Source of the DNA: Anaerolineae bacterium
GTDB taxonomy: Bacteria; Chloroflexota; Anaerolineae; Aggregatilineales; Aggregatilineaceae
Direction of reading: 5' to 3'
Assembly (NCBI GenBank): GCA_023382715.1
Contig: JAHDWP010000006.1
Coordinates: forward strand, 1-64,000
Length of the DNA stretch: 64,000 nt
A model generated the notes under the pieces. It was given only the letters and a program-made list of their open reading frames with translations. It was not told where the DNA came from and searched no databases. The position numbers were made by a program, and so were the translations under genes. Positions 4,983 to 6,106 of the stretch are shown here, piece after piece (positions within the stretch are counted from its first letter, which is position 1; each line of letters starts with the position of its first letter).

Positions 4983-5099
4983 GATTAGCTCCTGGTGATC
5001 GGTGTCTGTCTTTAGCGAGCGATGGTCAGTTTTCAGCGAGAACTGCTACAAGGGGCTGCGCCCTCGCTGAGAGCTGATTGCCGACAACTGATCGCTCCC

Positions 5100-5774
5100 T
5101 CACGCTCTGCCCGGCGTGTGCACCACGACCAGCATCCCCGCGACGAGGGCCACTCGCGCCCCCGCCGCCGCGATGACGTTGCTGACGCCGCGCGCCGGGC
5201 CGAAGCGCAGCGCCTCATCGCGCAGGGGGTAGCGCAGCCCCTCCGTGCGCACGCCGCGCGCGTCGCCGCCCAGGGGGATGAGCGAGATCGTGTCGCCCGG
5301 CTCCCCGTCCAGGGCGTGCTCGCCGGGGCCGATCAGCCACAGCGTCTGCCACCCGGCGACCAGGCGCACGTCGCGCCCGGCCAGCGCGCCAAGCGTCAGC
5401 AGCAGGACGTTGGCCAACGCCTGGTCGAGCCGCCCGCCCGCCGCGCCCAGCACGCGCACCCAGCTCGCGCCGCGCTGCGCCGCCGCCAGCAGCGCCAGCT
5501 CGAGGTCGGTCTCGTCCTTTTCCGCCGCCACGCGCCGAAGGGTTGCCCCGCGCGCGCGCAGATCGGCCAATTCCTCTCCGCTCAGGGAGTCCATATCGCC
5601 GACGACCAGGTGCGGAATCAGGTCGCAGGCCAGGGCCAGCCGCGCCCCGCCATCTGCCGCAATGACCAGCGCACCGGCCCCCTCGCGCAGCGCCCGCCGC
5701 ACAGCGGGGCCGTCGTACAGGTCGCCATTGGCGAAGACCAGCGCCCGCGCCGGCGCAGACCCGTGCTCGCCCAT
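5100..5774 (-). CDS. thiN: thiamine pyrophosphokinase
   Basis: A 224-residue enzyme that converts thiamine and ATP to thiamine pyrophosphate in the cytoplasm. Family marks are LVFANGDLYDG near the N-terminus, ADGGARLALAC, PHLVVGDMDSLS, EKDETDLELAL and LGAAGGRLDQALAN, the usual Asp-rich substrate and magnesium sites. A longer open frame reaches 5852, but its first codons lie inside the TPP riboswitch and terminator, so ATG 5774 (MGEHGSAPARALVFANG) is the real start. The ribosome binding site AAGGAG is part of the terminator stem just upstream. It is the first gene of the thiamine locus. Confidence 0.88.
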   Translation of the reverse strand: MGEHGSAPARALVFANGDLYDGPAVRRALREGAGALVIAADGGARLALACDLIPHLVVGDMDSLSGEELADLRARGATLRRVAAEKDETDLELALLAAAQRGASWVRVLGAAGGRLDQALANVLLLTLGALAGRDVRLVAGWQTLWLIGPGEHALDGEPGDTISLIPLGGDARGVRTEGLRYPLRDEALRFGPARGVSNVIAAAGARVALVAGMLVVVHTPGRA

Positions 5775-5810
5775 CAAAAAAAGCCGCTCCTTCGGCGGGA
5801 AGGGAGCGGC
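5775..5810 (-). terminator. intrinsic terminator hairpin of the TPP riboswitch, overlapping the thiN ribosome binding site
   Basis: On the minus strand GCCGCTCC (5810-5803) pairs with GGAGCGGC (5790-5783) around CTTCCCGCCGAA, followed directly by seven T (5782-5776) and then GATG of thiN. The 3' arm holds the AAGGAG ribosome binding site (5792-5787), 12 bases before the start codon. The same hairpin could therefore terminate transcription and hide the ribosome binding site when TPP is bound. Confidence 0.85.
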
Positions 5811-5835
5811 CTGGCAGCGCCTTGAGTCGTGCGTG

Positions 5836-5930
5836 GCTCCCTCCGCCGGCATTACCCGGATCAGGTTCGTAGGGTCGGCGTCGCAGAACGGACGCGCCTC
5901 TCAGCCTGGCTGCCCCAGGCTCCCCCGGCA
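5836..5930 (-). promoter_or_regulatory. TPP riboswitch (THI element)
   Basis: Read on the minus strand, the region contains the conserved blocks in the right order: GGGGGAGCC, GGCTGAGAGG, GACCCTACGAACCTGATC, GGGTAATGCCGGC and GGAGGGAG. The closing P1 helix pairs the GGGGGAGCC side with the GGAGGGAGCC end region. This is the thiamine pyrophosphate aptamer, placed directly upstream of a terminator and thiN. Ligand binding is expected to shut expression. Confidence 0.95.
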
Positions 5931-6020
5931 GAAAATGGGCTTGGTAAGCTTATCTCGACTATAGCAGGAAGACGCCGCGCTGCCAATGGGCGCAGGTGCG
6001 GCCCAGGTGTGAGACAGAAT

Positions 6021-6106
6021 TCCTGAACCGCAGAGACGCAGAGGGCGCGGAGAAGGATCAGGAGTGTTTCTTGCTTTTCCTCTGCGATCCCTGCGCCCCG
6101 GCGGTG
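6021..6106. repeat. dispersed CGCAGAGACGCAGAG inverted-repeat element
   Basis: The left half (AACCGCAGAGACGCAGAG) and right half (CTCTGCGATCCCTGCGCC) are imperfect reverse complements around a purine-rich then T-rich centre. Related copies lie at 29350-29446 and 56884-56972, with a half copy at 39955-40014. All are intergenic. Confidence 0.7.

Follow-up and report, generated by a model that had tools for sequence, protein, structure and literature searches.

A TPP riboswitch ahead of thiN in an Anaerolineae bacterium, with one hairpin predicted to gate both transcription and translation

We analysed a stretch of 64,000 nucleotides from an Anaerolineae bacterium (Chloroflexota; positions 1 to 64,000 of contig JAHDWP010000006.1, assembly GCA_023382715.1), hereafter the window, in which thiN, the gene for thiamine pyrophosphokinase, is preceded on the minus strand by an aptamer of the thiamine pyrophosphate (TPP) riboswitch family. 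Between the two lies a terminator-like hairpin that carries a Shine-Dalgarno (SD)-like sequence in its 3′ arm. We consider it likely that the leader is a TPP OFF-switch heading an operon made of thiN and the genes for a permease, a binding protein and an ATPase, and that this single hairpin gates both transcription and translation. Unless stated otherwise, the coordinates given below refer to features of the minus strand.

Read in the direction of transcription, the hairpin (5810-5783; −17.3 kcal/mol; 11 pairs and one bulged C) is followed by a run of seven U (5782-5776), a single G (5775) and the ATG of thiN (5774-5772), which bears out the original prediction that the terminator ends one base short of the start codon. 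AAGGAG likewise lies where it had been placed, i.e., inside the 3′ arm (5792-5787), and its best anti-SD duplex amounts to −9.2 kcal/mol; 12 bases separate it from the ATG, most of them contributed by the U-run, and the distance from the hairpin to the start codon is 8 nt (5782-5775). Dinucleotide shuffling of 5835-5775 produced a hairpin and U-run of equal quality in 5 of 2000 trials, and the sequence GGAGCGGCTTTTTTTGATG is found once in the window when as many as 3 mismatches are allowed (0.01 expected by chance). In folding models of the complete leader, the terminator hairpin has a probability of 0.86–0.88 and the SD is unpaired with a probability of 0.01–0.02. From this arrangement we infer a double block by the hairpin, with termination presumably taking place in the U-run and part of the control presumably being exerted on translation.

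The aptamer itself was recovered by cmscan with the Rfam covariance model RF00059 at 5936-5821 (helices 5931-5833), its 64.3 bits exceeding the gathering score of 54.3 (E 2.5e-10), in agreement with the earlier identification of a TPP aptamer; it is the only match of this model in the window's own genome (3.88-Mb assembly). The conserved cores CUGAGA and GAACCUGAU and the helices are present in the alignment, 22 of the 28 Rfam pairs are canonical (3 of 5 in the outermost helix), and the genes that follow are thiamine genes (thiN and an NMT1/THI5-like transporter); the aptamer presumably binds TPP. Upstream, a consensus scan found a promoter-like pair, TTGGCA / TATAGT with an extended TG (5986-5958; 10 of 12 positions matched), which we treat as a lead only and from which an RNA start near 5951 is predicted. 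The aptamer's own GGAGGGAG was considered as a ribosome site (direct attenuation) and rejected, as no suitably spaced start codon follows it in the sequence. Just upstream of the promoter region lies a REP-like element, CCGCAGAGACGCAGAG (6028-6043, plus strand), with a partner arm of opposite sense near 6085-6105; it has 101 matches in the genome at up to 1 mismatch (43 forward, 58 reverse), against 1 for the reversed-pattern control, and many copies form inverted pairs about 40–60 bases apart.

The switch requires a fold that competes with the hairpin, and such a fold can be drawn. The strand GGCGGAGGGAGC at the 3′ end of the aptamer (5847-5836) can form 12 pairs, with a two-base bulge, with GCUCCCUUCCCGCC (5807-5794), which comprises part of the terminator 5′ arm and the loop. 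This anti-terminator shares bases with the last helices of the aptamer and with the 5′ arm of the terminator, and therefore excludes the aptamer and the hairpin alike. In an RNA ending at 5791, it belongs to the unconstrained minimum (−62.4 kcal/mol, versus −42.7 for the aptamer-enforced fold, energies that, like all those given here, leave out TPP and tertiary contacts). When it is enforced in a longer RNA, the six bases of AAGGAG are unpaired with probabilities of 0.99, 0.97, 0.77, 0.68, 0.99 and 0.32; hence, the alternative fold on which the original prediction was made to depend does exist and leaves the ribosome site mostly free. Overall, the folding model supports a competition between anti-terminator and hairpin.

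According to the mechanism that we propose, in the absence of TPP the hairpin's 5′ arm and loop (5807-5794) would be engaged by the aptamer 3′ end (5847-5836), letting RNA polymerase read through and leaving AAGGAG free for the ribosome. With TPP bound, the aptamer would keep 5847-5836 to itself, the hairpin 5810-5783 would form and the polymerase would stop in the U-run adjoining the thiN ATG, while in any transcript that escaped termination the thiN ribosome site would be hidden by the same hairpin. The ligand is thus predicted, from sequence features, to affect both termination and translation; the transporter genes would presumably feel the transcriptional gate only, and thiN both gates.

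The distribution of RF00059 was examined across 61 genomes (the window's own and 60 of the same order), 49 of which have it, for a total of 51 matches; 50 were read, a contig-edge match in G031 being left out. Among these 50 TPP loci, 35 precede thiN and 15 other genes, mostly one for a THDSF-type binding protein. The merged layout, i.e., an SD in the 3′ arm of a terminator-like hairpin with a U-run, was found at 27 of the 35 thiN-linked loci, where the hairpin ends 2–9 nt before the chosen start codon (start codons of relatives were picked by script, ATG being preferred). Loci that the hairpin scan had overlooked or truncated were read by eye, and L018 becomes a 28th merged locus if its truncated hairpin is taken at full length. 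At five thiN loci (L019, L120, L122, L123 and L004), a separate ribosome site follows the terminator, and L009 has no U-run. In L020, a site-hiding hairpin without U-run stands just before the thiN start (leader position 157), and this locus is probably a translation-only version of the platform. A looser, mechanical any-start rule is satisfied at 30 of the 35 thiN-linked loci versus 4 of the 15 TPP loci at other genes; the same rule applied as background to the first ATGs of open reading frames (ORFs) of at least 200 aa selects 16 of 558, of which 10 are TPP-thiN starts. A homologue of the permease follows thiN at 31 of the 35 loci (hand count); none is shown at L004, at L020, at L015, which lies at a contig end, or at L126, because its thiN match was below the cut-off. 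As for the other TPP loci, a further riboswitch of this type precedes a different gene in genomes G003 and G002, of the window's genus (L013 and L027, respectively), the one at thiN being alone in the window's genome; L029, at a binding-protein gene, has its GGGAGG ribosome site within a hairpin with a long loop, 8 nt ahead of the ATG (leader positions 160-210), in addition to an upstream terminator-like hairpin.

In a wider comparison of 80 thiN loci, 27, from the wider Chloroflexota, had a TPP match by a loose pattern (regex) and 53 had none. The any-start rule holds at 17 of the 27 versus 2 of the 53, and a permease follows thiN at 13 of the 80 loci, all of them among the 27 (13/27 versus 0/53), some contigs ending soon after thiN. 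Leaving aside the 5 loci already in the order set, the 27 comprise 22 TPP-thiN loci on named Chloroflexota contigs, 13 merged and 9 split (L087, L105 and L108 were classed by eye, as the scan mis-picked the last two and L087 lacked an aligned start). Bellilinea caldifistulae GOMI-1 (L108) and an Anaerolinea thermophila assembly (L105) are among the merged loci, and five of the nine split ones are on contigs titled Dehalococcoidia or Dehalococcoidales (L065, L081, L082, L092 and L098). The aptamer was confirmed by cmscan in all 13 merged loci and in 7 of the 9 split loci (L065 and L082 being below threshold), and no RF00059 was detected in the 5 pattern-negative thiN loci that were tested out of 53. 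One locus, L036, lies on a contig titled Pleurocapsa minor, a cyanobacterium, yet its thiN is close to those of Anaerolineae (60% identity to the query); perhaps this contig is mis-binned.

The pairing can also be followed across loci. At four of the five consensus stem pairs, two or three standard pair types occur and pairing is mostly preserved, and the expected number of anti-terminator pairs exceeds the mean of the locus' own shuffles in 24 of 28 loci. In a swap test on the 24 distinct loci among these 28, duplexes between an aptamer end and its own hairpin averaged −18.65, compared to −16.62 (sd 0.50) for permuted partners, and 0 of 20,000 permutations was as low, but the loci are related rather than independent, which inflates this result and means that it is not a probability.

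Besides this relatedness, several observations weigh against the proposed switch. L116, L008 and L015 take the last three of the 24 places in the swap test (22nd to 24th), and in only 10 of the 28 loci were the anti-terminator pairs matched by no more than 1 of 30 shuffles, the window's own locus (2.3 expected pairs versus 0.9 in shuffles) being matched by 2 of 30. The mean anti-terminator pair probability ranges from 0.12 to 0.86 for 3′ ends between 5794 and 5786, i.e., it varies with the assumed ends, and the aptamer fold alone is not the minimum of the model (−37.6 versus −43.4). Over 5951-5740, the anti-terminator fold reaches −91.0 kcal/mol versus −96.6 for the closed one. Equilibrium thus prefers the closed hairpin and, therefore, the open (ON) state must be kinetically trapped, lasting only if refolding is slow. 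Moreover, the leader as a whole folds with an unremarkable energy (z −0.40), the 12 bases from SD to ATG make a long distance, and a simple terminator scan did not list the hairpin 5810-5783, in our opinion because its rule admits no bulged C.

An alternative is that the riboswitch acts on transcription only, the hairpin being a terminator in which the SD is included merely through the compactness of the leader, and read-through transcripts being translated normally. Every sequence feature of an intrinsic terminator is indeed there, and the thiN loci with a separate ribosome site (L019, L120, L122, L123 and L004) indicate that a second gate is not required; nevertheless, 27 merged loci out of 35 exceed what compactness would give, when the 15 TPP loci at other genes are mostly split, and the closed hairpin of the window leaves the SD almost entirely paired, so that we regard this alternative as rather unlikely. 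Conversely, the hairpin might only hide the ribosome site, with a U-run that does not terminate in this organism, as could be suggested by L020, where the SD-hiding hairpin lacks a U-run, and by the weak U-runs of L016 and L018. This second alternative appears highly improbable to us: seven U directly follow a GC-rich stem in the window and in L017, and six in L024, while, within the order, the TPP leaders of transporter genes often carry a terminator well ahead of the start codon, which suggests that termination is in use. We thus favour the dual gate.

The thiN frame is open upstream to an ATG at 5852, within the aptamer (ORF list), and a start there, which the original prediction had dismissed, would bring the hairpin into the coding sequence. 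The frame from the aptamer ATG is also kept in L017, of the same genus, but it is lost in L024, another locus of this genus, where the U-run is one base shorter (six U) and the two ATGs are 77 bases apart versus 78 in the window. Furthermore, an in-frame aptamer ATG is absent from most thiN loci, and ATG 5852, which sits in conserved aptamer bases, has no spaced SD by eye. A start at 5852 is therefore scarcely credible and, because of the frame loss in L024, thiN most likely starts at 5774. A TTG at 5777 would provide a better SD spacing (9) and could still serve in the window itself; ATG 5774 is preferred, as L017 has TTC at this place.

This locus is an instance of a platform that was already described by 2007. 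The term “dual transcription and translation attenuation” is applied by Barrick and Breaker 2007 (PMC2258182) to a terminator so near the gene that the 3′ side of its hairpin contains the ribosome site, with a limit of 10 nt between hairpin and start codon; the platform is credited there to an earlier TPP comparison (its ref. 48), and Chloroflexi are mentioned only as perhaps enriched in transcription attenuation. The window has the same layout, with an intrinsic terminator after the aptamer, 8 nt to the start codon (within the 10-nt rule), an SD in the 3′ side and a mutually exclusive anti-terminator, and no mechanistic difference from the platform. Dual control by one hairpin has also been measured in E. 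coli for the pT181 repC attenuator, whose 3′ half contains AGGAG at a distance of 12 nt from the start but which responds to an antisense RNA instead of a metabolite; repression was 85% when transcriptional only versus 98% when dual (PMC5435934). Closer to the window, genes for substrate-binding proteins in this order also have TPP riboswitches (e.g., L005, L030 and L002), of the same aptamer family and with a thiamine-type target, yet mostly with a separate terminator and ribosome site, unlike thiN. In the limited collection of literature searched, no report on a Chloroflexota thiN TPP switch was found, nor any for Anaerolineae combined with “TPP riboswitch”, and the available part of PMC13273304 names no Chloroflexota. 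The comparative pattern, merged at thiN and mostly split at transporter genes, is the sole modestly new point.

Regarding the genes behind the switch, thiN (5774-5100) is identified by PF04263, PF04265 and TIGR01378 (160.3 bits, cut-off 76.4). It is followed in the same operon by the ABC transporter permease (4982-4122; PF00528), which also follows thiN in relatives, the NMT1/THI5-like substrate-binding protein (4014-2956; PF09084, 207 bits) and the ABC transporter ATPase (2959-2171; PF00005). A mobile repeat between thiN and the permease was considered and rejected, 4995-5099 being single-copy in the genome.

We tentatively suggest, without holding it as probable, that in Anaerolineae the merged hairpin has been retained at thiN and is no accident, the gene for the ligand-making enzyme being gated twice and the transporters behind it once, and that it might link pure terminators (L004, L123) to a pure sequestor (L020) in evolution within one order. 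For the organism itself, the analysis corrects the gene start to 5774 instead of 5852 and places a four-gene thiamine operon under predicted TPP control in the poorly studied Chloroflexota. Most worth keeping is the finding that one and the same gene comes with merged, split and U-less platforms, a natural series that would allow the separate worth of the transcriptional and translational gates to be measured.
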